DNA of 64,000 bases. Origin: Nilaparvata lugens. Its lineage: Eukaryota; Arthropoda; Insecta; Hemiptera; Delphacidae. The notes under the pieces are model-generated. The model was given only the letters and a program-made list of their open reading frames with translations. It did no database searches and had not been told where the DNA came from. Below are positions 4,841 to 52,400 of this stretch, one piece after another. The position numbers and the translations under genes are program-made. The DNA lies in assembly GCF_014356525.2 (NCBI RefSeq), contig NC_052515.1, positions 17,458,531 through 17,522,530 on the forward strand, given 5' to 3'. The stretch's first letter is position 1. Every line of letters begins with the position of its first letter.

Positions 4841-5037
4841 ATGAGTTCTAATAACAACATGAGTCACCAGTTAGATCCCGATATTTATAATGTGACAGAA
4901 GCCGATCTGGCTAAGTTTTACCGCGCGAGCGAACTCTGTATCTCAGCTAATTTTGGAGATATCTACTCAATTTTTTTTTAAATGAAAGAGGATAACAAAA
5001 TAAAACTGGGAAGCACAAATTTTATCAAAAAATCATT
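4841..5037 (+). repeat. Short ORF leader whose 3' part is inverted at 11862-11992
   Basis: An ATG at 4841 encodes 46 residues and ends with TAA at 4979-4981, immediately followed by the ATG of the chimeric Merlin frame at 4982. From about 4912 to 5037 the sequence matches the reverse complement of 11862-11992 (AKFYRASELCIS in translation), with scattered mismatches and a small length change in a T-run. The two inverted copies bracket 7.1 kb that includes both Merlin copies and the TTAGG array. Confidence 0.6.
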
Positions 5038-5767
5038 TCTTCCATTATGGAAAATTTTAGGATTAGTCTATTTATGGTCCAAAAACGTGTCATCAAAAGT
5101 GATTTGTGAGGAGTTGAAATTATCATGTAAAACTGTTGTAGATTGGAGTTCTTTTTGTCGAGAAGTGACATTTGATGCTGTACATGTTAGAAAACAAAGA
5201 ATTGGTGGTGAAGGTAGAAAGGTGCAGATTGATGAAAGTAAGTTTGGTAGAAGGAAATATAATAGAGGCCGCCTCATTGAAGGACAATGGGTTTTTGGGG
5301 GAGTAGATGAGGAGTCAGGTGACACCTTCATGGTTGCTGTAGAAGACAGAACATCCGAGACATTGGTACCAATTATAAAAGAATACATTTTGCCTGGTAC
5401 AACCATTGTTTCCGATTTTTGGAGGGCCTATGATTGCTTAAAAGACGAGGGCTATGAGCATCTGAAGGTGAACCACAAAATTAATTTTGTGGATCCTGAC
5501 TCGGGTGCTCATACGAATAAAATCGAGGCCTCTTGGAGTGCGGCAAAATCAAGTTTGCCGCGATATCATAGAAAAAAAGCGTTTTTTCCTGGATATTTAT
5601 CAAAATACCTTTTCATTAAATCATGCAAAATAAGAAAGGTGAACTCATTCATTGAATTCTGCAAAGAAGCGGGAAAACTTTATGATCCTGCCAGAAAAAA
5701 TTACAATGATGAGGAAATAAGTGATGATGAGAATGAAGACTTGGAGGATGATATTGGAATGATTTGA
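4982..5767 (+). CDS. Merlin (IS1016-type) transposase copy 1, N-terminally replaced
   Basis: 261 codons. From about residue 16 (KSFLPLW) the protein is the same as residues 89-333 of the intact copy at 6125-7126; reading the two coding stretches side by side I saw no base differences. The native N-terminus with its four-cysteine finger is replaced by about 15 residues read from the unrelated upstream repeat (MKEDNKIKLG). The breakpoint is near 5026, at shared AAAAATCATTTCTTCC. All three catalytic acidic residues remain (QIDES, VSDFW, NKIEAS). It is a partial duplication, offset 1,359 bp, extending to about 5927. Without the finger it probably cannot bind its ends, although a competing or regulatory product is conceivable. 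Confidence 0.75.
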   Translation: MKEDNKIKLGSTNFIKKSFLPLWKILGLVYLWSKNVSSKVICEELKLSCKTVVDWSSFCREVTFDAVHVRKQRIGGEGRKVQIDESKFGRRKYNRGRLIEGQWVFGGVDEESGDTFMVAVEDRTSETLVPIIKEYILPGTTIVSDFWRAYDCLKDEGYEHLKVNHKINFVDPDSGAHTNKIEASWSAAKSSLPRYHRKKAFFPGYLSKYLFIKSCKIRKVNSFIEFCKEAGKLYDPARKNYNDEEISDDENEDLEDDIGMI

Positions 5768-6124
5768 ATGAGGTATGCTTGTTTTTTTGATATTTCGAGT
5801 AATATGATTGATATTATTTTATAACTTATTGATGAGATGATGTTTACAATAATTAATTAAGAAACGTATACAACAAAAAAACATTGAAGTGGAATAATAG
5901 TTCAAATTAAGGCCTAAATAATTATTTCAATATTAATTGTAATTGGAAATTGATTAATTAAATTATTTATTATTTTAATCATTTTTTATTATTAAATCTA
6001 AAAGATTATTATTATTATTATTGTTTGTTGCACAACCAAAAACACAAGGCATCCCTGAATTGGTGGAAATTTTCAATTTCAATTGCAGTTTCGCGAAAAG
6101 TGAGTATATAGGTCTAAAGTGATT

Positions 6125-7126
6125 ATGGCTGAAGAAAAGATGAATCTTATAGTTCTAAGTGAGTGGGGAAGGAGAAATGATAGGACATTGATTGAAAAAT
6201 GCATGGATTGGGGAATTTTAAAAAGATATATTGAGTGCCCGAATTGTGGAAGCAGAATGAATCTGCGAAAAAACAAAGTGTCATTGGATGGGTACAAATG
6301 GGAGTGCACAAAATTTGTAATTAATGGAAAGCAAAAAAGGAAACGATGCCGATACTCAATGAGCTTAAGGAAAAACAGTTTTTTCGAAAAATCATTTCTT
6401 CCATTATGGAAAATTTTAGGATTAGTCTATTTATGGTCCAAAAACGTGTCATCAAAAGTGATTTGTGAGGAGTTGAAATTATCATGTAAAACTGTTGTAG
6501 ATTGGAGTTCTTTTTGTCGAGAAGTGACATTTGATGCTGTACATGTTAGAAAACAAAGAATTGGTGGTGAAGGTAGAAAGGTGCAGATTGATGAAAGTAA
6601 GTTTGGTAGAAGGAAATATAATAGAGGCCGCCTCATTGAAGGACAATGGGTTTTTGGGGGAGTAGATGAGGAGTCAGGTGACACCTTCATGGTTGCTGTA
6701 GAAGACAGAACATCCGAGACATTGGTACCAATTATAAAAGAATACATTTTGCCTGGTACAACCATTGTTTCCGATTTTTGGAGGGCCTATGATTGCTTAA
6801 AAGACGAGGGCTATGAGCATCTGAAGGTGAACCACAAAATTAATTTTGTGGATCCTGACTCGGGTGCTCATACGAATAAAATCGAGGCCTCTTGGAGTGC
6901 GGCAAAATCAAGTTTGCCGCGATATCATAGAAAAAAAGCGTTTTTTCCTGGATATTTATCAAAATACCTTTTCATTAAATCATGCAAAATAAGAAAGGTG
7001 AACTCATTCATTGAATTCTGCAAAGAAGCGGGAAAACTTTATGATCCTGCCAGAAAAAATTACAATGATGAGGAAATAAGTGATGATGAGAATGAAGACT
7101 TGGAGGATGATATTGGAATGATTTGA
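6125..7126 (+). CDS. Merlin-family DNA transposase, apparently intact
   Basis: 333 codons with no break. Merlin elements are eukaryotic relatives of bacterial IS1016/IS1595 and move by cut-and-paste in the nucleus. Residues 38-75 hold a C-x2-C ... C-x13-C cysteine set (C38, C41, C61, C75), a likely zinc-binding finger. The ISXO2-like catalytic core follows: D156 in QIDESKFGRRKY, QWVFGG at 174-179, D217 in VSDFWRAY and E254 in NKIEASW. VNHKINFVDPDSGAHT is the family's diagnostic block. The C-terminus (about 314-330) is acidic. I chose the ATG at 6125. Terminal inverted repeats and an 8-9 bp target duplication were not identified around this copy. It is the best candidate for an active protein here. 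Confidence 0.88.
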   Translation: MAEEKMNLIVLSEWGRRNDRTLIEKCMDWGILKRYIECPNCGSRMNLRKNKVSLDGYKWECTKFVINGKQKRKRCRYSMSLRKNSFFEKSFLPLWKILGLVYLWSKNVSSKVICEELKLSCKTVVDWSSFCREVTFDAVHVRKQRIGGEGRKVQIDESKFGRRKYNRGRLIEGQWVFGGVDEESGDTFMVAVEDRTSETLVPIIKEYILPGTTIVSDFWRAYDCLKDEGYEHLKVNHKINFVDPDSGAHTNKIEASWSAAKSSLPRYHRKKAFFPGYLSKYLFIKSCKIRKVNSFIEFCKEAGKLYDPARKNYNDEEISDDENEDLEDDIGMI

Positions 7127-7289: not shown

Positions 7290-7700
7290 AGATATTAATT
7301 ATTGTGATTCAGATCAGATTCTCATTTAGTTTTCATTGAAATATTGTTTTTTTACCTTCTAACACCTACAAAACTAACTATTTCTATATCCTACAGACAT
7401 AGCCTACAACAACAGCCTACAGCCTTAGCCTATAACAACAGCAAATGGCAAATTTAGAATACTAGCTTACCCGGCGAACTTTGTACCGCCAAAAAGTCAA
7501 TGTATCTCATGTCACACTTGACTTTATTTGGTGAATCATGAAATCTATCTGACAATCAATATTTTCATTCAAGTACATCTCAATACAGACTTCCTATGTG
7601 CTTAGTCATGCAGCATTTATTATCCCAAAAACATATTCTTCTCATTGAATTGGTATTAATATCTGTCAGTAAAGTGTTGATTTAAAAAAAAAATAGATAG
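7290..7700. other. Non-coding spacer with dispersed-repeat end
   Basis: No coding potential. 7380-7450 has an imperfect repetition of AGCCTACAACAACAGC. 7463-7490 (CTAGCTTACCCGGCGAACTT) resembles a terminus of a dispersed element common in insect genomes; that is recollection and not proven here. Confidence 0.3.
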
Positions 7701-9480
7701 TTAGGTTAGGTTAGGTTAAATTAGATTGGGTTGGATTAGGTTAGGTTAGGTTTGATTTTAAGTAAACGCCATATCATACTTTATATCAGTTTTGCAGCTC
7801 TTTTATAAAAACGTGATACTAACCTGACCAAAACAAAATTAATCAAACCTACCTACCCAAATCTAATTAAAACAAACCAAACCTAACCTATTTACCTTAA
7901 CCCAATCCAATAAAAATATATCTAACCTTATAAAAAACAAAATCAAACCAAAAATAATCAATTAAAAAATAAATAATCTGAAACAACCAACCTTAACCTA
8001 ATCAACATAATCAACATCAACAACCTAACCAAAGCCTACCTGATGAAGACTGAGCAAGTGTGAGGTGAGTTAAGGTTAGGAGAAGCTTGGGTTGAGAAAA
8101 GATTAGGTTAGGAGGAGCTTGGGTTAGGAGAGAATTAGGTTGAGAGAAGCTTTGGTTGGGAGAAGCTTAGGTTAGGAAAAGATTAGGTTAGGAGAAGCTT
8201 ATTTTTGGAGGAGCATGGGTTGGGAGAAGCTTAGATTGGTAAAAGATATGGTGAGGAGAAGCTCAGGTTGGTAGAAGCTTAGGTTAGGAAAAGCATAAGT
8301 TAAGAGAAGTTTAGGTTAGGAAAATATTAGGTTAGGAGAAACTTAGGTTAGGAGGAGTTTGGGTCAGGGGGAGCATAGATTAGGAGAAGCTCAGGTTAGG
8401 AGAAGCTTGGATTAGAAAAAGATTAGATTAGAAGAATCTTAGGTTAGGAGAGACTTTGGTTGGAAGAAGCTTGGGTTAGAAAAGGATTAGGTTAGGAGAG
8501 GCTTATGTTAGGAGGAGCATGGGTTGGGGGAAATTTAGATTGGTAAAATATACAGTTAGGAGAAGCTTGGATTAGGAGAAGCTAAGGTTGGAAGAAGCTT
8601 AGGTTAGGAGATGCTTTGGTTAGGAGAAGCTTAGGTTAGGTTAGGTTAGGTTAGATTGGGTTAGGATAGGTTAGGTTTGGTTTGGATTAGTTTAGGTTAG
8701 AATTAATTAGGTTAGGTTAGATTAAGTTTGATTTGGTTAGGTTAGGTCTTATTTGATATGGTTAGGTTGAGTTAGATTAGGTTAGGTTAAGATTGTTTAG
8801 ATTGGGTTAGGTTTTGTTTAGATTTGAATAGGTTTGGTTAGGTTAGGTTGGTTTAGGTTAGGTCAGGTTCGGTTAGGTTAGGTTAGGTTAGGTTAGGTTA
8901 GGTTGACTTGAGTTAGACAAAGGTTTTGTTTGAATTAGCTTTGTTTAGGTTAAGTTGAATTTGGTTTGATTAGGTTAGGTCTGATTTGATACGGTTAGGT
9001 TGGGTTAGGTTAAGTTAGGTTAGAATTGATTAGGTTGGGTTAGGTTTTGTTTAGGTTTGGTTAGGTTGGTTTAGGTTAGGTCAGGTTCGGCTAGGTTAGG
9101 TTCGGTTAGGTTAGGTTTGGTTTAATTGGATGAGCTTGGATTGAGTTTAGGATAGGTTAGGTTAGGTTAGGTTTGGTTTGGTTGGGTTAGGATAGGTAAG
9201 CTTGGTTTAAGTTAAGGTTAGGTTTGTCAGATTTGTTTTAAACAGGATAAGGCTTGGGTTAAGGTCTAATTTGGGTTGTTTTTCTGCTAGGTTGGGTTGG
9301 GTTAGCTTAGGATGATTTGGGTTGTATCAGGTTGTCTTAGGTTAAGTTAATTAGTGATTTTGTTTGGACTAGTTGTTTACTAGTATTAAATTGTATTGGG
9401 AGAGGTTAGATTAAGTTAGGTTTTTGTTGGGTTGTTTTGTAACTAGGTTATATTGATTTGTATTGGGTTAGGTCAGGTTA
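7701..9480. repeat. Degenerate interstitial TTAGG telomere-like array
   Basis: Most of this interval is built of TTAGG and variants (TTAGA, TTGGG, TTTGG). The cleanest run is 8871-8904, almost seven GGTTA units. The orientation is TTAGG at 7701-7755, switches to CCTAA at about 7823-8036 (AACCTAACC, AACCTAAC), then returns to TTAGG until about 9480. 8060-8640 is a derived minisatellite with a period near 16 bp alternating AGGAGAAGCTTAGGTT and AGGAAAAGATTAGGTT, rich in HindIII sites. TTAGG is the ancestral insect telomere repeat. The degeneracy and the flanking unique sequence argue for an internal site. Confidence 0.92.
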
Positions 9481-11861: not shown

Positions 11862-11992
11862 TTTGATTTTTTGGTAAAAATTGGGCTTCCCAGTTTTATT
11901 TTGTTATCCTCTTTCATTTAAAAACAAAAATTGAGTAGATATCTCTAAAAATAGCTGAGATACAGAGTTCGCTCGCGCGGTAAAATTTAGCC
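11862..11992 (-). repeat. Inverted partner of the 4912-5037 repeat
   Basis: On the minus strand this encodes AKFYRASELCIS and then the same leader up to the GGGAAGC...CAAAAAATCA segment as the left copy. It lies just before the piggyBac transposase fossil. Because the match ends differently at each site, it is a dispersed fragment pair and not a clean terminal repeat of one element. Confidence 0.6.
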
Positions 11993-13739
11993 CAATGAGG
12001 AGTTGGAAACTGAAACTGTAGATGTATCTGACTCCCTCCCTGATTTTTATAAAAATAGCCTATAATACTCACTTCAAAGAAGGATATCAAGTGAAGGCAC
12101 AGAAACATTTCTATTTCACCTGATGAATTCACAACCAGCGTCAATGATGTTGAAGAACTGCTTTCACCAGTATGTTATTTTAAAAGATACATAACAGATG
12201 ATTTGTTTGATTTGATTTCGGAGATGACAAATATGTATGCATTACAGAATGGTAGGAATAATTTCAAACATTGCACACCTGAAGAAATTAAAACTCTGTT
12301 TGCTCTTCATATGATATTGTAGGCACACTAAAATTTCCAAGGATCCGGCTATATTGGGACACCACTTTGCAAATGAATGCTTTCACTGAACAGATGTCAA
12401 GAGACAGGTTTTCGAGCTACGGAGTAATCTTCATTTAGTAAATAATTTAGATAAACCCAACACCTGCACAGATAAGTTTTTCAAAGTACGACCAATATAT
12501 GACTGTGTCCGTGAGAGATGTTTAGAGCTTCAAGTTGAAGAAAACCTGTGTGTGGATGAAGCGATGATTCCCTTTACAGGAAGATCAAGTCTGAAGCAGT
12601 ATGTAAAAGGAAAGCCAACCCCCTGGGGAATTAAATTGTTCATGCTTTGTGGACAAAGTGGCAAAGCATATGATTTTATATTATATCAGGGTAGTTCTAC
12701 AGAGATTGATGACAAAGTTCAGAACATCTATGGCCTTGGTGGTAGTGTTGTACTCAAGTTATGTGAGCGAGTTGTTGGTAATGCTGGCCACAAACTGTTC
12801 TTTGACAATTTCTTTGGATCTTATCATTTATTTCAAGCATTGAAACAGAAGAAAATTTTTGCAGCTGGAACAGATTCTGTAAACCTCCTTTCATCTCTGA
12901 CAAAGATGCACTGAAAAAGGACAGAGGTACATCATTTGAAGTATCAAGCCTTGATGAAATTATTTTGGTGAAGTGGATAGATAATAAAATTGTTTCAATG
13001 GGTTCTAACTTTGTTGGTGTAGGAACAGTGGATCTCGTCAAACGCTGGGATAAGAAGGGGAAAAAATATATTGAGATAGAACGACCTGAAGTTGTTAAAT
13101 GTTACAATAAAGCAATGGGAGGTGTCAATCTTCACGACCAATTGATAAGTTATTATCGAATTTTTGTGAAGTCACGAAAGTGGACATTACGGTTGATTTT
13201 TCATGCAGTGGATTTTGCAATTGTTCAGAGTTGGCTTGAATATAGACGAGATGCTGACTCATTAAAGACACCAAAAAAGGAAATACTTGACCTATTGCAC
13301 TTTAGAATGAGAGTAGGGATGTCAATCCCGGGATCCCGAATCCCGGGATCCCGGTCCATTTTTTATACCTAACAATCCCGGGATTTTCGGGATTGGAAAC
13401 CTGGAATTGTGAATCACATTTTTCCAAAAACAATCCAATATGGAATTTATTTATGGTGATGAATATGAGTTTCTATAACTAATTTATTGTTCTAAGTGTT
13501 TGACTAATTCATTTTACAGGCACAGTCTACAGTTGCATATACATAATAATGATTGTATACTGTAGCCTACTCTTTACTGGCTTAATAGAATTCGCATTAT
13601 CAGTTCGCATAATTGGCAGAATGGTTGTTGATTGGTTGTTATGCCTCTACGTTTGTTTCTGTTTACACAGCACCACAATTACCGGTCTAGACAGTGGAAT
13701 ATTTCTATTTTTTTTTTTATTTACCGAGAATTCTTTACA

Positions 13740-14840
13740 GATAACAATCCAAATATTGATAAGTTACTCAACGACTTGGAGTCTTCCGAACGATTCATTG
13801 ACATCTACAACAATAATACTCTAATAGCAATAACTGATGTTACGAAGGACCTAGCCCTCCTGAAACAAGAATTCTTGGAGGACTTACAGACAACGAGTTC
13901 TTGGATTGAACAATATACATTGATAAGTCAGACATACAGATCTTTCGCGACCCGAATCTCAAAGTTAATATCCCTGGGAAGTGGTATAGCATCTTTATCC
14001 ACTCTTATTGGTGAAGAGTCGGCTATTGCAGCGACATCTCTTTTATTTGGAAAGGGAGTTTTTCCCAATGGAATATCTGCACCGATTCTTGTAAGACCTG
14101 TTACTATCAGTCTTGCACATGGCATCATGTGGCTAGAGCTTGAGTTTTCTAACCGAACACACTTTTTATATGGAAGAAAAAGTGGAGAGAAAAACTTATT
14201 CATTGAAAGACACACATCTGACAAGGTTTGCATTATGAAACAACCCAAGAAAGGTGGCATTACTTTCAAGGACCCGTTCTCAGGAAAAACTTATAGAGGT
14301 GGGCCTCTCAATTATAGGGAGTGTTTGGACAGTGGCAGATCATACCTCTGTGGGTATCAAACTTTCTTCAACGATGTACAGATTCTTGAGAGATGCTTAA
14401 AGGCTACAGGAAAGACAAAGAGAACTATTGGAAAGCGAGCGACGAGTTGGATCGATGAGTATGAGAAAGCACTGGAGGGCCTAAGGAACACCTCAGTAGT
14501 AGAAGATCACAATTCTCGGGAAACTACAGCCTTGGATGAGAGACTCAAAGTAGATATATTCAGAATGAGGGAAGAACTAAAAATTCTGGTTGCAGCACAC
14601 GACAAGCTGAAGGATGAAATTCGAAACTACTCAGCCAATCAACACCGTGATACTCTGCTCCACACCTTGATAAACACTATCACGACCTTCCTCTTAATAC
14701 TTCTTGTGCTTGTCGGAATTGCGATCCTCTTAAGAGGATGGTCATTTGTAAAACGCATAGGAGCCACACCGATCAACACACTGTTCCGGGATCATCGGGA
14801 GATCGCGGTGCCAACAACGGATCCCGACCTCCAAATCTAG
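13740..14840 (+). CDS. Endogenous viral-type membrane glycoprotein, ectodomain to tail
   Basis: The frame is open for about 365 codons from 13740 to the TAG at 14838; it formally extends upstream to 13632, but the first 35 codons look like spacer. Visible architecture: an N-terminal helical stretch, a hydrophobic Gly/Ala/Ser-rich segment at about 13960-14090, a Cys-containing ectodomain (14220-14400), a charged heptad-like helix (about 14530-14640), one hydrophobic membrane span (about 14660-14740) and a short cytoplasmic tail. This is the layout of a viral fusion or envelope glycoprotein. No signal peptide is visible, so the 5' part may be missing. I cannot fix the family; candidates are negative-strand RNA virus (jingchuvirus/mononegavirus-like) glycoproteins or insect retrovirus-like envelopes. 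The long intact frame is notable among otherwise decayed neighbours. Confidence 0.6.
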   Translation, partial: DNNPNIDKLLNDLESSERFIDIYNNNTLIAITDVTKDLALLKQEFLEDLQTTSSWIEQYTLISQTYRSFATRISKLISLGSGIASLSTLIGEESAIAATSLLFGKGVFPNGISAPILVRPVTISLAHGIMWLELEFSNRTHFLYGRKSGEKNLFIERHTSDKVCIMKQPKKGGITFKDPFSGKTYRGGPLNYRECLDSGRSYLCGYQTFFNDVQILERCLKATGKTKRTIGKRATSWIDEYEKALEGLRNTSVVEDHNSRETTALDERLKVDIFRMREELKILVAAHDKLKDEIRNYSANQHRDTLLHTLINTITTFLLILLVLVGIAILLRGWSFVKRIGATPINTLFRDHREIAVPTTDPDLQI

Positions 14841-14953
14841 CCGCACAATTGGGTAAGAACTAAGTAGCAAAGCTACTTTTAGGAATCATTCAAAACTATG
14901 GGTAAAAAAAACAGAAATACATTGGCATAATATTTAGAAAAAGATAGGATAAA

Positions 14954-15280
14954 ATGGCAACTCGCTATGTATCACCACCTGATGCTCATCTATCTCTTCC
15001 TATCACCATAGAAGAATGTGTAGATTTACTACAGTTCAGCATCGACAGCGCATGCCCCCTCCATAAGCCCCTTTGTCTTATTAGGGATGATAAGAAGATT
15101 ACAAAACACATATACTCCACATGCAAGAGTCCCTGGGATTGCCTTATTCGTTGGGTCCGGTCTGTGCCTCTCCTAGCCACCGATGTCTGCTTTAGTGAGC
15201 TGTTTTGTGCTGCAGTTGAATGTGCTATAGCCGACACTACGTTTACTCTCCAAGACGGAGTGGTTTTGAACCGAATCTAA
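14954..15280 (+). CDS. Small ORF downstream of the glycoprotein, unknown
   Basis: The ATG at 14954 opens 108 codons ending in TAA. The product is Cys-rich (eight cysteines), has no membrane span, and I recognise no family. It follows the glycoprotein by 113 bp. In that gap 14897-14914 reads TATGGGTAAAAAAAACAG, which resembles the A-run gene-end signals between genes of negative-strand RNA viruses. That would fit a captured bicistronic viral segment, but it is inference. Confidence 0.4.
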   Translation: MATRYVSPPDAHLSLPITIEECVDLLQFSIDSACPLHKPLCLIRDDKKITKHIYSTCKSPWDCLIRWVRSVPLLATDVCFSELFCAAVECAIADTTFTLQDGVVLNRI

Positions 15281-16775
15281 TATCCTAAAGATTTAGAAGA
15301 ATACTTCAGACTTAAGCTCAGAGCTGATGAGATTAAAGACACTCTACGTCAAATCTACTATTTGCAATAGTGCTGATGGCATTTCCTTGAAATGCATTCT
15401 GAACTTTGAAAAGACTTCAGAAATCAGAAATAAAAAAGCACGATTCACTCACTGTCTAATTATTCCTCTCCTCTTCTCTTTCTCTATCATAAGTAGAATA
15501 TCTAGTTGAAGTAAATATTATAGTTGCTCTACGAAATTTCATTTAGTAATGTGTAGTGGTTCAGCTTTCACAGTGGTTTGGTCGGTATGGCGTTACTGTT
15601 TTACAAAAAGTATTCTATTTTATTATTAATATTATTAATTCAAGTGATATCAATTCACTTTAAAGTATTTGACGTAATTAAAGTGTGAGCTCTATCCCGT
15701 CCTGATGTAGGATAGAAATGCTTTTGTCTTCATAAAAAAGACTCTGATTAGAGTTATCTTGCTTTCCTCAGTTCTCACTATCATCTAGGATACAGCAAAT
15801 TCAAGGTGGGACATGAAATAAAACAGTTACTCCTATAATCTTGAAAACATTTATAGAAATAGAATGTTCAATTTTAATATTATTCCCAAATATATTTTTT
15901 CATTTTAATAATAGCCTCTCCCTCTTTAATGGTCCCTTTTTCCTCTACACACACTGTTACTGAACATGTAATTGAGGGGGAACAATTGGTTAAAAATGCA
16001 TTAAACTGATTTTTGACAATCCCGGGATCCCGGGATTGATATTGGATAATCCCGAAATACCGGGATTGGAAATCAGTCCCGGGATTGACATCCCTAAATG
16101 AGAGTAAGTGATGGTTTGCTACACTTTGGAAGAAATGTACACTTGAAGAAACGTGGTCGTCCAGGTAGTTCATCGCAATCATCTATGCAAGTAAAGAAAA
16201 CCCGAGGAGAAGTCAGACCAGCAAAAGAAATTCAATTTGACTCTATAGACCACTTACCGCAGCATGATAATGTCCCACAACCCATCCGATGTAAATTCCC
16301 ACAGTGCAACGGGAAATCAAGGGTGAAATGCATGAAATGTGGAGTTCACTTGTGTCTGAACAAAGACAGAAACTGTTTTGTGGCATTTCATACAAAGTAA
16401 TATCGAAAGTGTCTATGGACTTATGTTTATATTCCAGACTTTTTTATTCAAGTTTAGTACTATTACATTATAATTTTTGCGTTATTCATATTATTTTTTA
16501 TTTAGTATTACTCATTAAAGGCAATTAATACACACTTCAAGTTCTCAGTAATTCAAGTAATTTCCAGTACATAGATCTCAAAAACTTTCTAAGGATATCA
16601 ATTTTGATAAAATAATCCACAAATTCAACAACAATATAGCACATTAATAAATTGAGTGACAATTCAGTGTGATTCAGTGTGTCTAACATCAGTGAGAGAT
16701 ATCAGGCAGTAACGGCTTCAGTGAGTACTATTATCTTTATTATTTTACTATTGATGAAAAAATTTACTATTGGAA

Positions 16776-16800
16776 CCCAATGTCCTCATTTGAGGACATT
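16776..16800. repeat. Palindromic terminus-like motif CCCAATGTCCTCA...
   Basis: AATGTCCTCA at 16779 is inverted as TGAGGACATT ending at 16800, with two bases between. It resembles the ends of the inverted-repeat element at 4319-4669. Its position about 375 bp after the piggyBac stop codon makes it a candidate 3' end of that element, though no TTAA adjoins it. Confidence 0.4.
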
Positions 16801-16984
16801 GCAGTAAAATTTAGAAAATTTGACAAATTTAAAAAAAATGTATTAGAAATTCATAAAAAATAGAGGATTTCAAAAATGAGAACAGAAAATTTGTAACTTT
16901 TATCATTAGGTTTGAAAGGGTTTAAAAACCCAATCACCTTCTCAGTCGATTTAACTTATATATAATTATATATGATAGAAACAT

Positions 16985-17690
16985 AGAAACAATATAATAT
17001 TATCTTATTATTTTGCAATTATATAGTATTATTTCTTATACCATTTTCATGATTTTTTTTTTTTTTTTTTTCATTCATAATTCAAAATCATCCTTGATCT
17101 TTACTTTCTAATGTCTAGAGCCAACATATTAAATAATGATTTCTCAATATTCTATACAGTTCTGTCATGTTGAACTTTATTGTTCTGGATTAAAAACAAT
17201 TAAACATGTACAAGATTTGGAATTTTATGACATTCCTGGCATAGCATCTTAGATGTAATCTAGCAGTTTTTAGTGCTAGTCCTTCAAAATGTATCCTGAC
17301 ACTATATGAACAATTAAATTTCATGGTTCAAAATACAGTATCAGTATGAGATAGTATTTAAAATGCATATTCCGAATCTTGATCACCTTTTTTTTTGAAA
17401 ATAATCATCTTGATCCGAAACAGGCCACTTTTGAGACTAGTAATGAAATATAGCCTATTATTTTTTGTATTAGTGAGTTGGGGAAATGACTGTTGCAGGT
17501 TTCGGGGTAAGCTGTAGTGAGAGGAAATACCAAAATATAGCAGGTGATAAGGGAGAAGATTGCTTAGCAAAATTTCGGCATTGTTCAATTCCCAACTTCT
17601 GATGACCATACATTTCATCTGTTGGGAGCCAGCGCAGCAGTGATTGAACCTGTTGATTCCAGAGTCGGAGAGCATAATTATTGTTCAACT
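16985..17690. repeat. Non-coding repeat, copy 1 of a dispersed pair
   Basis: Aligns by eye with 18515-19190 in the same orientation (about 1.52 kb apart), with perhaps 10-15% divergence and small indels. Shared landmarks are TTTCTAATGTCTA, CCTTCAAAATGTATCCTGA and GAGAGGAAATACCAAAAT. There is no open frame common to both copies, so the frames seen here are not genes. A T-run lies at 17054-17071. Confidence 0.75.
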
Positions 17691-17743
17691 TATTCATAAG
17701 GGGGAAAGAAATGCAATCATCTTTTCAAAGTTATTGACTGAGT

Positions 17744-18340
17744 TTGTTGAAAAAGAGCTCCATGAAAGTGACAGGTAACAGAATATTTTTCCCAGACATG
17801 AAAACACTTAGGATGATTGTTCCATCAGAGAGAATAAAATTAAAAAGTAAAATAGACCAAGAAGAAACTGAAATACTGATGAAAATTTGGGACACTTCCA
17901 AGCATAATGTGTTTTTAGTCCCAGTACACAATCGGTTATATCTGATGATGCATTGTCTGAAGATGAAGGAAAAGAATTTAAGGATCTATTATTTGCTTAC
18001 CAAAGTAAAGAAATGGAAGATCTTTATAATAGATATGGTGCAAACACAATAATGCATGATGCAACTTAAAAAATCTGTAAGTATGCCATTCCATTGTACT
18101 TTGTTGTAGTGGAAGCAAATGTTAATTATCAAGTGGTTGCTGCTTTTGTTGCTTTTTATTAGGCGTAAAAAAGGGGAGAAAAGGGGTTCTGAGGTAAACC
18201 AGGTAGGATACAAAACACTGAAAAAGGTTAAAAAATCTAATGGACTCAGTTCTCTCAAGAGAAAGCACTTGCAAGAAATGGAACGTTTCATGTCTCTTCT
18301 TGACAGAGAATATTACAAGGCAATTTTAAGTACAAATTGA
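17744..18340 (+). pseudogene. Decayed fragment resembling a SWIM/CARF-type MULE-derived protein
   Basis: One frame (17760-17930) gives FFPDMKTLRMIVPS ... KIDQEE. A shifted frame at about 18030-18160 gives NTIMHDAT, a stop, then LYFVVVEANVNYQVVAAFV. The order and spacing recall insect proteins with a MULE-like DDE domain (MTDATYKT..LPLFF..V.TNV-Y). Several frame breaks exist. Sequence from 18165 to 18340 is basic and unassigned. It lies between the two copies of the non-coding repeat. Family assignment is tentative. Confidence 0.35.
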
Positions 18341-18514
18341 AACTGTAATTTTATTTTCAGACACAACAATAATGTCTAAATTGATTTATATTCTGAACAA
18401 TATAATTATTATCTTATTATTTTGCAATCGTATACTATTATTCCATATACCATTTTCATGATTTGTTATTGGGAATTATTTGGAAAATAATTTGTCATTA
18501 TTTTTTTATATTCT

Positions 18515-45244: not shown

Positions 45245-46330
45245 TAAGATATTTGTATTAATGTGTTGAGTTATGAGGATGAGAAGGATATTATATATCC
45301 CATATTCACATCAAAGAATAGAGGAAGGAAGCATACAATAATAGAGATATATTCTAGTCCAATAATTGTTAGGGCTAATAGCTTGGAGGAATCTGAGAAA
45401 TTGATTGACCATTTCTTAGATGAATTAGAAATACATAGTATTATATTGAAAAAGAAATTGCAAACTATTATTGATATGAATTTCACTACAGAAGATGAAA
45501 AGACATATGTACAACAAAAATCTTGTTGTTTATGTACAAAACCGATAGATTTCATTGATAGGGTCAGACATCACTCTCACTCAACAGGAAAGTCTATTGG
45601 TGCTGCACATGATAATTAAAATATGAAAAAAGTAAAATTCATACCAGTAATTTTCCACAATCTAAATGGATATGATATGCATCTCATTTTGAAATCTCTT
45701 GGAAATTATAGAAAAAAATAGCACTATTGCAAAAAGTAGTGAGAAAATAATGACAATGACATTGAATAAGGATTTATAGATTCATTGAATTTTCTACATT
45801 CTTCTCTTGATAAATTAGTTGCTATAAATCCTGAGTTCAAGCTACTTCAACAACATTTCCCTCCAAATAAAATTGATCTACTAAGAAAAAAACAATTGTA
45901 TCCATATGAATATATAAACAATTTTCAAAAATTCCTTGAAACTAAATTGCCAACTATTGATAAGTTATATAGGTGACAAAAATGCAACTGTAGAAGAGTA
46001 TGAGCATGCAAAAACAGTATGGGAAGTTTTCAAAATAGAGAATCTTGTACAATTCCATGAATTTTATTTGAAAATAGATATTCTTCTCCTTGCTGATGTT
46101 TTTGAAAACTTTAAGAAAACGTTCATGAATACATACAACATGGATGTAGCACATTGCTACTCTCTCCCTCACTTTTCCTGGTCTGCTATGTTGAAATACA
46201 CAAAAGTAGAATTGCAATTAATTTCTGATCCTGATCAGTATTTATTCTTTGAAAAAGGAATTAGGGAAAAAAGGGGAGGAATTAGTATTATTCCACACCG
46301 CTATGCAAAAGCCAATAATAGATATATATT
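45245..46330 (+). pseudogene. DNA polymerase B, exonuclease to palm entry (copy A)
   Basis: 45263-45619 contains a C-x2-C ... H-x5-H pattern (KSCCLCTKPIDF, RVRHHSHSTGK), the HNH-like block typical of these polymerases, and ends with TAA at 45617. After the stop the frame continues VIFHNLNGYDMHLIL (exonuclease motif with Asp), then 45785-45976 FLHSSLDKL ... LYPYEYI. A one-base shift near 45960 leads to DILLLADVFENF ... HFSWSAMLKYT ... RGGISIIPHRYAKANNRY. Copy A ends abruptly near 46325, where it jumps back to sequence equivalent to 45350. Confidence 0.78.
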
Positions 46331-46799
46331 CTAGTCCAATAATTGTTAGGGCTAATAGCTTGGAGGAATCTGAGAAATTGATTGACCATTTCTTAGATGA
46401 ATTAGAAATACATAGTGTTATATTGAAAAAGAAATTGCAAACTATTATTGATATGAATTTCACTACAGAAGATGAAAAGACATATGTACAACAAAAATCT
46501 TGTTGTTTATGTACAAAACCGATAGATTTCATTGATAGGGTCAGACATCACTCTCACTCAACAGGAAAGTCTATTGGTGCTGCACATGATAATTAAAATA
46601 TGAAAAAAGTAAAATTCATACCAGTAATTTTCCACAATCTAAATGGATATGATATGCATCTCATTTTGAAATCTCTTGGAAATTATAGAAAAAAAATAGC
46701 ACTATTGCAAAAAGTAGTGAGAAAATAATGACAATGACATTGAATAAGGATTTATAGATTCATTGAATTTTCTACATTCTTCTCTTGATAAATTAGTTG
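46318..46799 (+). repeat. Partial repeat of the exonuclease block (copy B)
   Basis: 46326-46799 repeats 45350-45832 at an offset of about 970 bp with very few changes. The join uses AATAGATATATATTCTAG against AGAGATATATTCTAGTCC, suggesting short homology. It is cut at 46799/46800, where the non-LTR sequence begins. Confidence 0.85.
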
Positions 46800-50349: not shown

Positions 50350-52400
50350 TAAGATATTTGTATTAATGTGTTGAGTTATGAGGATGAGAAGGATATTATA
50401 TATCCCATATTCACATCAAAGAATAGAGGAAGGAAGCATACAATAATAGAGATAATTATATTGTAGTCCAAAAATTGTTAGGGCTAATAGCTTGGAGGAA
50501 TCTGAGAAATTGATTGATCATTTCATAGATGAATTAGAAATACATAGTGTTATATTGAAAAAGAAATTGCAAACTATTATTGATATGAATTTCACTACAG
50601 AAGATGAAAAGACATATGTACAACAAAAATCTTGTTGTTTATGTACAAAACCAATAGATTTCATTGATAGGGTCAGACATCACTCTCACTCAACAGGAAA
50701 GTCTATTGGTGCTGCACATGATAATTAAAATATGAAAAAAGTAAAATTCATACCAGTAATTTTCCACAAACTAAATGGATATGATATGCATCTCATTTTG
50801 AAATCTCTTGGAAATTATAGAAAAAAATTAGCACTATTGCAAAAAGTAGTGAGAAAATAATGACAATGACATTGAATAACACATAAGGATTTATAGATTC
50901 ATTGAATTTTCTACATTCTTCTCTTGATAAATTAGTTGCTATAAATCCTGAGTTCAAGCTACTTCAACAACATTTCCCTCCAAATAAAATTTATCTACTA
51001 AGAAAAAAACAATTGTATCCATATGAATATAAAAACAATTTTCAAAAATTCCTTGAAACTAAATTGCCAACTATTGATAAGTTCTATAGGTGACAAAAAT
51101 GCAACTGTAGAAGAGTATGAGCATGCAAAAACAGTATGGGAAGTTTTCAAAATAGAGAATCTTGTACAATTCCATGATTTTTATTTGAAAATAGATATTC
51201 TTCTCCTTGCTGATGTTTTTGAAAACTTTAAGAAAACGTTCATGAATACATACAACATGGATGTAGCACATTGCTACTCTCTCCCTCACTTTTCCTGGTC
51301 TGCTATGTTGAAATACACAAAAGTAGAATTGCAATTAATTTCTGATCCTGATCAGTATTTATTCTTTGAAAAAGGAATTAGGGAAAAAAGGGGAGGAATT
51401 AGTATTATTCCACACCGCTATGCAAAAGCCAATAATAGATATATGGATGATTTCAAGATAAATGAGCCAGAAACATACATTATCTATTGGGACTGTAATA
51501 ATCTTTATGCTGTGGGAATGAGTTGTAATCTACCACCTTCAAATTTTGAATGTATGACAGAAGCAGAAATTCAAGAATTTGATGTAGAACAAGATCAAAG
51601 TAATGTAGGATATGTATTGGAAGTAGATCTTGAATACCCAAGACATCTTCATAACAGTCATAATGGCTATCCTTTAGCACCGGTGAAAGAAAAACCACCA
51701 AATGGAAAAACTGAAAAGTTGTTGACTACTTTGAAAGATAGAGAGAAATACATAATACATATTAATAATTTGAAACTATACCTAAGACTTGGCATGAAGC
51801 TCAAGAAAATTCATAGAGGGATTAAATTTCTACAATCTAAATTGTTGGAACCATTTATAAACTTGAATACTCAATTAAGAAGAAATGCACATAATGACTT
51901 TGAACGTAATCTTTATAAACTAATGGATAATAGTATATATGGACGAACTTTAATGAATGTGAAAAAACATTCTGATTTTGAAATTGTAACTAATGAAAAA
52001 AACTACACAAACTCATTTCAAAACCAAGAACTAAAAACTGGCATTTATTTGGAGAAAATGTTGTTGGAGTAACTTTAAATAAAGTTGAGATAGTGTTAAA
52101 TAAACCAATTTATGTTGGAATGGTAATTCTAGAGGAAAGTAAAGCAGTTATGTTTGATTTCCATTATAACTATATTAAAAAAATATTTCCGAACGAACTA
52201 AATCTGGTTTGAAACCTAAAATGTATTCATTCATATTATCTGATAATACAGAAGAAAAGAAGGTAGTGAAGGGTATAACAAAAAGTGCTTAGGAAAGCAA
52301 TTAAGTTTCAAATTATATGAAGATTGCTTATTTCAGGGAAAGACTGTAACAATATTCATTGTTCCAATTGTGAATGATGAGGATTATGCGAATTATCATG
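50350..52400 (+). pseudogene. DNA polymerase B, exonuclease and palm without motif C (copy C)
   Basis: 50492-50728 repeats the CCLC...HHSHSTGK block; 50902-51093 and 51023-52072 carry on. The long frame (51098-52072) has DILLLADVFENF, the palm motif A in IIYWDCNNLYAVGM (Asp at 51491) and motif B in NLYKLMDNSIYGRT (51908-51945). A shift at about 52066 leads to VGMVILEESKAVMFDFHYNYI. Near 52190 sequence jumps to PKMYSFILSDN, so the segment that carries motif C (DTD) is missing. Remnants (FKLYEDCLFQGK) end about 52400. The enzyme would be catalytically dead. Confidence 0.8.

Follow-up and report, generated by a model that had tools for sequence, protein, structure and literature searches.

In insects, endogenous fragments of RNA viruses are common, and so are small DNA transposons. 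Insect endogenous viral elements (EVEs) from non-retroviral negative-strand viruses are likewise RNA-virus fragments in repeat-rich regions with related copies elsewhere, and Rhabdoviridae and Chuviridae have been named as particularly prevalent among insect EVEs (PMC10084718). Already in print are viral glycoproteins captured by retrotransposons, a viral glycoprotein within an element of Bemisia tabaci that is unclassified, and a fusion of a herpesvirus with piggyBac. Glycoproteins of Jingchuvirales have been found in transposable elements (PMC10084718, PMC7642597), in two cases within complete transposon boundaries: Anakin of Anopheles stephensi and the unclassified element of B. tabaci (PMC10084718). 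Teratorn, the piggyBac-herpesvirus fusion, is a giant composite mobile element of 180 kb (PMC10175614). In planthoppers, Toti-like EVEs have been described, with a piggyBac element predicted between two of them (PMC10636211). Here, we describe a locus of the planthopper Nilaparvata lugens at which a probable fragment of a lispivirus-like RNA virus (the cargo) lies inside a non-autonomous hAT element, which in turn interrupts a piggyBac gene. The locus is part of a 64-kb stretch (the window; G000:C12:17458531-17522530, here on contig C12), and its features are listed in Table 1.

The locus differs from other insect EVEs in that the host site is inside a non-autonomous hAT element and in that the source appears Lispiviridae-like. 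As in the Jingchuvirales cases, a viral membrane-protein gene would lie inside a transposable element, but the carriers there are a mosquito retrotransposon and the unclassified Bemisia element, whereas here the carrier is a non-autonomous hAT element, the virus group is another one, and no independent loaded copy was found. The likeness to Teratorn lies in the DNA-transposon ends around viral sequence; in contrast to that element, the locus holds a fragment of 1.65 kb and gives no sign of joint movement. The planthopper Toti-like sequences are likewise RNA-virus EVEs, but they derive from another virus group, and the available sections of that paper mention no hAT nesting (PMC10636211). Among the literature matches listed, none was noticed that describes a piece of an RNA virus nested within a non-autonomous hAT element. 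Lispivirus-like fossils of planthoppers went unmentioned in the literature passages, and no systematic search for prior reports was made.

The virus fragment probably inserted once into the hAT element, which would make it a nested EVE. The fragment would derive from a negative-strand RNA virus related to lispiviruses and would run from the 3′ part of a membrane-protein gene across a gene junction into the beginning of the gene that follows. It would have been reverse-transcribed and then inserted, a single time, into a non-autonomous hAT element of about 1.1 kb, whose arms would be mobilised in trans, now or formerly, by a related transposase-bearing hAT element. The loaded element would then have become part of a block of about 5.4 kb that is present twice on C12. 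Since the site before insertion was found for both layers of this clean double nesting (virus in hAT in piggyBac), the layers are datable and could be traced in populations.

An earlier sequence-only reading had described a hAT-type transposon with exact 20-bp inverted ends and a perfect 8-bp target duplication, inserted in a piggyBac gene and lacking a transposase, and all of these points held. The two ends are fully complementary, and no other terminal-repeat match was found in the window (at most three mismatches) or in 100 shuffles. The left part of the interrupted gene matches Pfam DDE_Tnp_1_7 (E 1.3e-31 and 1.1e-13), which identifies a piggyBac-type transposase. The short right part (16098-16397) has no Pfam match and is alignable to the same paralogues as the left part. 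These two paralogues (L061 and L062, on contig C1) align on both sides of the element at 96.1-96.9% identity. The outer insertion of the hAT element into the piggyBac gene is certain, because both paralogues, which have no insert, read AATGAGAG once and thus preserve the empty target site.

The family to which the element belongs was searched for in the whole genome assembly (1.085 Gb, 6,870 contigs), where copy counts of repeats are lower bounds. The 20-bp ends occur at 1,027 places (534 forward and 493 reverse, at most two mismatches), which therefore corresponds to at most about 500 paired elements; a reversed control pattern gave one forward match and no reverse match. The related elements in the first eight loci, of which L006 and L007 are one element, align to the loaded copy at its two arms only. 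In a size check of 17 other loci, end pairs 600-1,400 bp apart were present in 12, with lengths of 718 to 1,154 bp (seven of them 1,134-1,154 bp) and an exact 8-bp duplication in every copy except L004. Among six longer copies (1.6-6.0 kb), the duplication is exact in three and one base off in three. One copy of 3.48 kb (L053, target duplication CATAAGAT) shares the ends and carries zf-BED (E 9.3e-6) and Dimer_Tnp_hAT (E 6.4e-9) domains, in broken frames. Its shared ends place the family in the hAT superfamily, and the form of about 1.1 kb is non-autonomous, resembling a miniature inverted-repeat transposable element; none of the frames seen inside the loaded element encodes a transposase. Nested insertion in this family happened at least once more: L051 holds a long interspersed nuclear element, recognised by a reverse-transcriptase domain (RVT_1), within a copy of the same family.

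The cargo has an insertion point of its own. The junction was checked in 23 hAT loci; the right arm could be aligned in 22 of them, and the cargo site is uninterrupted in all 22. These cargo-free copies read GGAATATTTGCAATAG or near variants, with small indels or substitutions at the site in L001, L008, L019, L022 and L052, for example, and a different left side in L056; the remaining locus (L004) has an internal deletion there. In the loaded copy, GGAATATTT is followed by the cargo and then by TATTTGCAATAG. The TATTT motif, single in the cargo-free copies, thus flanks the cargo on both sides, and this repeat would be either a 5-bp target duplication or microhomology. Just inside the left end of the cargo lies a poly-T tract, whose length differs between the two C12 copies.

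Cargo DNA was found at three places genome-wide. Besides the copy in the window, there is a second copy on C12 (C12:17571194-17572843), 99 kb away, and one on contig C7 (C7:51795689-51796861), which is 86% identical over positions 13715-14884 of the window. In the C12 neighbour, positions 13053-18469 of the window recur as a block at 98.7% identity, and both the flanks and the 8-bp duplication are shared. The two blocks differ by 41 substitutions in 5,414 compared sites: the left flank (260 sites) and the left arm have none, the viral frame has 4, the tail of the cargo 8, the right arm 9 and the right flank 20. The left edge of the neighbouring block abuts an assembly gap. The repeated block may be a local duplication or a pair of unmerged haplotypes. 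The neighbour was considered as evidence for transposition and dropped, given the shared duplication and 5.4-kb block and the assembly gap. At the C7 copy, no hAT ends were found in the surrounding 9.9 kb (at most three mismatches). A search of the genome with the long-frame protein gave 15 matches: one in the window, two at the C12 neighbour, two on C7 and ten elsewhere (L014-L023), the last ten beginning at residue 1, stopping at residue 22 to 60 and lacking the cargo. The second frame was matched at the two C12 places only. In sum, two of the three cargo places share flanks and duplication, and the third lacks the transposon.

These data bear on the order of the two insertions. The sequence-only reading held that the transposon captured the gene and then carried it as a unit, a route by which DNA transposons might spread viral envelope genes within a genome. 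A version of this idea, in which the hAT element gained the viral fragment elsewhere, by nested insertion or gap repair, and the loaded unit was then cut and pasted into the piggyBac gene, agrees with the perfect ends and perfect 8-bp duplication that surround the loaded element. A related transposase-bearing copy exists as well, with broken frames, and cut-and-paste movement would leave no donor copy and the same anatomy. However, a perfect duplication is equally expected if an empty element inserted first, and despite the 1,027 end matches no loaded element at an independent insertion site was found genome-wide; the sole other loaded copy shares flanks and duplication with the copy in the window. 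The two piggyBac paralogues are free of cargo and of any element, which is neutral on the order. Movement of the loaded unit is therefore held to be unlikely, and the proposal that DNA transposons spread such genes gains no support from this case: the other alignable copies are all cargo-free and the cargo has its own TATTT-flanked insertion point, the two observations that the sequence-only reading had itself named as grounds for its rejection. In the simplest reading, the viral fragment arrived after the element, because the family is common, L051 is also nested, and the loaded form occurs at one site only.

The cargo contains two frames. The long, uninterrupted frame claimed earlier is real, but the figure of 365 residues for its product was not reproduced: the first ATG gives 399 amino acids. 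Its first 25 or so residues are transposon sequence and the poly-T tract of variable length, and the virus-like conserved part is formed by residues 26-400 (375 codons). In the C12 neighbour, the viral frame runs upstream into the transposon to a total of 449 amino acids with a hydrophobic leader (L024, 3978-5327); it is the difference in poly-T length that switches the leader frame between the C12 copies. Upstream, the protein continues for another 42 residues in the C7 copy, and the cargo is therefore 5′-truncated. In the long-frame protein (P0001), residues 347-365, close to the C-terminus, form one strong transmembrane segment (mean hydropathy 2.9), and the viral part of the protein, with its truncated N-terminus, has four N-glycosylation sequons and only four cysteines. 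After the stop codon comes TATGGGTAAAAAAAACAG, from 14897, and then the second frame, which had been noted before as a small additional frame and was found again; in the C12 neighbour its stop-to-stop length is 140 amino acids, as it crosses the end of the cargo and takes in three codons of the right arm. Together with the A tract between them, the two frames resemble a stretch of negative-strand virus genome that spans a gene junction. Since this junction is contiguous, the template would more probably have been a genomic, antigenomic or readthrough RNA than one processed mRNA.

Evidence for a lispivirus-like source came from the surroundings of the C7 copy. A frame of 374 amino acids (P0003) lies 2.4 kb upstream of that copy on the same strand. 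Two Laodelphax striatellus proteins are related to it, one (49% identity) listed in UniRef as 'Nucleoprotein' and another at 73% identity over 56%. A profile of the P0003 family found three proteins among the 7,994 scored candidates of the protein database, the third one short, and no further relatives at E 1 among those candidates. A structural model of low confidence built from the three proteins was compared with BFVD by Foldseek, whose score combines structure and sequence. Hangzhou lispivirus 1, with its nucleoprotein (E 8.4e-6, 23% identity), and Bemisia tabaci arlivirus 1, with ORF1 (E 1.2e-5, 27% identity), gave the top matches, the only two of 128 with E at or below 0.001. Sanxia water strider virus 4 ranked next (E 0.0025), ahead of a further lispivirus (E 0.019). 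In the genome, the nucleoprotein family gave 18 matches, grouped into about 11 places and several with internal stops, and the mononegavirus polymerase family (PF00946) gave 32 matches, 31 over the cut-off, compared with none in 14 control genomes. At about 5.61 Mb of contig C8 (C8:5608987-5613156), two polymerase pieces flank three nucleoprotein pieces, and all five share a strand. Because of the nucleoprotein beside the C7 copy, its lispivirus matches and the mononegavirus polymerase pieces, the most likely source of the cargo would be a lispivirus-like mononegavirus, and the case points to a family of lispivirus-like fossils in the planthopper genome.

Within such a genome, candidate identities of the two products can be suggested. 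Nephotettix virescens lispivirus 1, a negative-strand insect virus, has the gene order VP1-VP2-P-G-VP5-L, with G and VP5 ahead of L, a G of 583 amino acids and a VP5 of 362 (PMC11360795). The source protein of the long frame would have about 420 amino acids and is set against these two by length only; it could be G-like or VP5-like. That it is a viral glycoprotein or spike is a plausible guess. The earlier label of a viral glycoprotein cargo thus stands in part: the cargo is foreign, probably from an RNA virus, and encodes a membrane segment, but there is no significant match to a viral glycoprotein. Gene order, together with a putative resemblance between its beginning and polymerase N-termini, suggests that the second frame may be where the polymerase begins.

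Several observations weigh against a single insertion of a lispivirus-like fragment into the hAT element. The order of insertion is not readable from the sequence, a poly-A tail is absent at the right end of the cargo, and the 5-bp repeat beside it could be microhomology. The best matches of P0001 in Pfam (E 0.072) and PHROGs (E 0.047) are to unrelated families; there were none at E 0.01 among the best 7,996 candidates, chosen by shared words, from 5.8 billion proteins, and none that were significant in PDB sequences, IMG/VR, GTDB contigs or phages. The best Foldseek match of its model (pLDDT, predicted local distance difference test, 42) in BFVD had E 0.027. The nucleoprotein family matched nothing in IMG/VR and its profile nothing in PDB; the nucleoprotein model has a pLDDT of 38 and TM-scores of about 0.2, so the lispivirus match is probably sequence-driven. 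Furthermore, the polymerase pieces are placed at order level (mononegavirus) only, and the putative viral label of the membrane protein comes from neighbourhood and constraint. P0002 had no significant match either: there was none in Pfam, and its best PHROG (E 0.013) is of unknown function.

The lack of any significant sequence or fold match between P0001 and a viral protein would fit the alternative that the long frame is a host gene, or a gene of some other mobile element, that was carried along. Against this, the one other genomic relative found for it, the C7 copy, lies close to a lispivirus-like nucleoprotein on the same strand. By a rough reckoning (about 11 nucleoprotein places in 1.085 Gb), the chance of such proximity is about 1e-4. 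The compact two-frame layout with an A tract between the frames and the absence of further genome copies also argue for a virus, and a non-viral origin is considered quite improbable.

Evidence on selection came from the comparison with the C7 copy, which was run on two separate pieces owing to a frameshift in that copy. The ratio of nonsynonymous to synonymous substitution (dN/dS) is 0.053 (219 codons, dS 0.72) and 0.041 (135 codons, dS 0.81), and differences at the first, second and third codon positions number 18, 5 and 64 in one piece and 8, 4 and 47 in the other. The low ratios show past purifying selection in the putative source lineage. Constraint combined with large silent change would fit two related virus lineages, each integrated recently relative to their split.

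It had also been suggested that the frame is intact because of retained function. One form of this suggestion is that the long frame is a domesticated gene under host selection, composed of a transposon start or leader and a viral membrane protein, whichever insertion came first. The frame is indeed open in both C12 copies, with no indels between them there, and the viral frame has few differences between the two copies (4 in 1,126 sites, compared with 37 in 4,288 outside). This deficit is not significant (Fisher p 0.084), however, and two of the four differences replace residues, the other two being silent. The leader frame, moreover, differs between the copies through poly-T length, and the C7 frame is broken yet equally constrained, so evolution in the virus explains the constraint. 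Survival of the open frame was considered by neutral simulation, which supposes equal ages for the cargo and the hAT arms; compared with six close relatives, the arms have 15 private substitutions among 1,121 sites. With substitutions only, the frame survived in 57.8% of runs at 1% divergence and in 46.1% at 1.5%, and with an assumed 0.12 indels per substitution in only 14.7% and 6.4%, respectively. If the two are indeed of equal age, an open frame would be mildly surprising under neutrality, which speaks at most mildly for domestication and against a simple fossil. Overall, the data make no good case for or against retained function, and domestication appears very improbable. Highly improbable is the combination of both departures, in which the loaded hAT element moved as a unit and the chimeric frame (leader, poly-T and viral membrane protein) is a young expressed gene; if true, it would make a non-autonomous DNA transposon the vehicle for a lispivirus membrane-protein gene.

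Table 1. Features of the nested locus, in positions of the 64-kb window
Feature	Position	Strand	Remarks
Host piggyBac copy, left part	11992..13313	+	Pfam DDE_Tnp_1_7 and paralogue alignment
Left 8-bp target duplication, AATGAGAG	13306..13313		Single in empty paralogues L061 and L062
hAT element	13314-16096		Holds cargo between two arms
Left 20-bp terminal inverted repeat	13314..13333	+	20/20 complementary to right repeat
Left arm of ~1.1-kb non-autonomous hAT element	13314..13704		Other copies align up to 13704
Long frame, 402 amino acids stop to stop	13632..14840	+	P0001
Left 5-bp direct repeat beside cargo, TATTT	13700..13704		Single in cargo-free copies
Cargo, 1,654 bp, probable lispivirus-like genome fragment in mRNA sense	13705..15358	+	
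Probable viral membrane-protein gene, 3′ 375 codons and stop	13713..14840	+	5′-truncated; transmembrane segment near C-terminus
A tract, TATGGGTAAAAAAAA, gene-junction-like, between the two putative viral frames	14897..14911	+	Putative function from position and appearance
Second frame, 108 amino acids, probable 5′ part of next viral gene	14954..15280	+	P0002
Right 5-bp direct repeat beside cargo, TATTT	15359..15363		
Right arm of ~1.1-kb non-autonomous hAT element	15359..16096		Alignable to other copies
Right 20-bp terminal inverted repeat	16077..16096	-	20/20 complementary to left repeat
Right 8-bp target duplication, AATGAGAG	16097..16104		
Host piggyBac copy, right part	16105..16928	+	Aligns to paralogues L061 and L062

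Other sequences related to the putative viral source were seen elsewhere in the genome. Open nucleoprotein frames of 425, 452 and 425 amino acids from stop to stop occur at L047 (C10:14133000-14142900), L048 and L049, respectively. At L047, an acidic P-like frame, whose product has no Pfam match, comes after the nucleoprotein frame. A third frame there was considered as a glycoprotein start and dropped, being judged by eye to be out-of-frame transposable-element DNA with a PHD-finger-like stretch. A region of C1 (G000:C1:18016256-18028955) holds five mononegavirus polymerase-like pieces with open frames of up to 854 amino acids, four of them starting at exact 3,088-bp steps, and looks like a tandem viral fossil or an assembly repeat.

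The remainder of the window contains further repeated sequences. Two near-identical long frames lie at 4982-5767 and 6104-7126, the second an ISXO2-like (IS1595-type) transposase (Pfam PF12762); this pair (4982-7126) is presumably a duplicated Merlin-type transposon. An interstitial array of TTAGG-like 5-bp units with 16-, 32- and 48-bp variants extends from 7700 to 9224, and GC skew is very strong at the array (0.58 in the 8-10 kb bin); in insects, TTAGG is the telomeric unit. Finally, related frames occur at 45918-46334 and 51002-52072, the second of which matches viral or organellar DNA polymerase B (PF03175). These frames adjoin repeated copies of another frame, and we assume that they may be Polinton-like.

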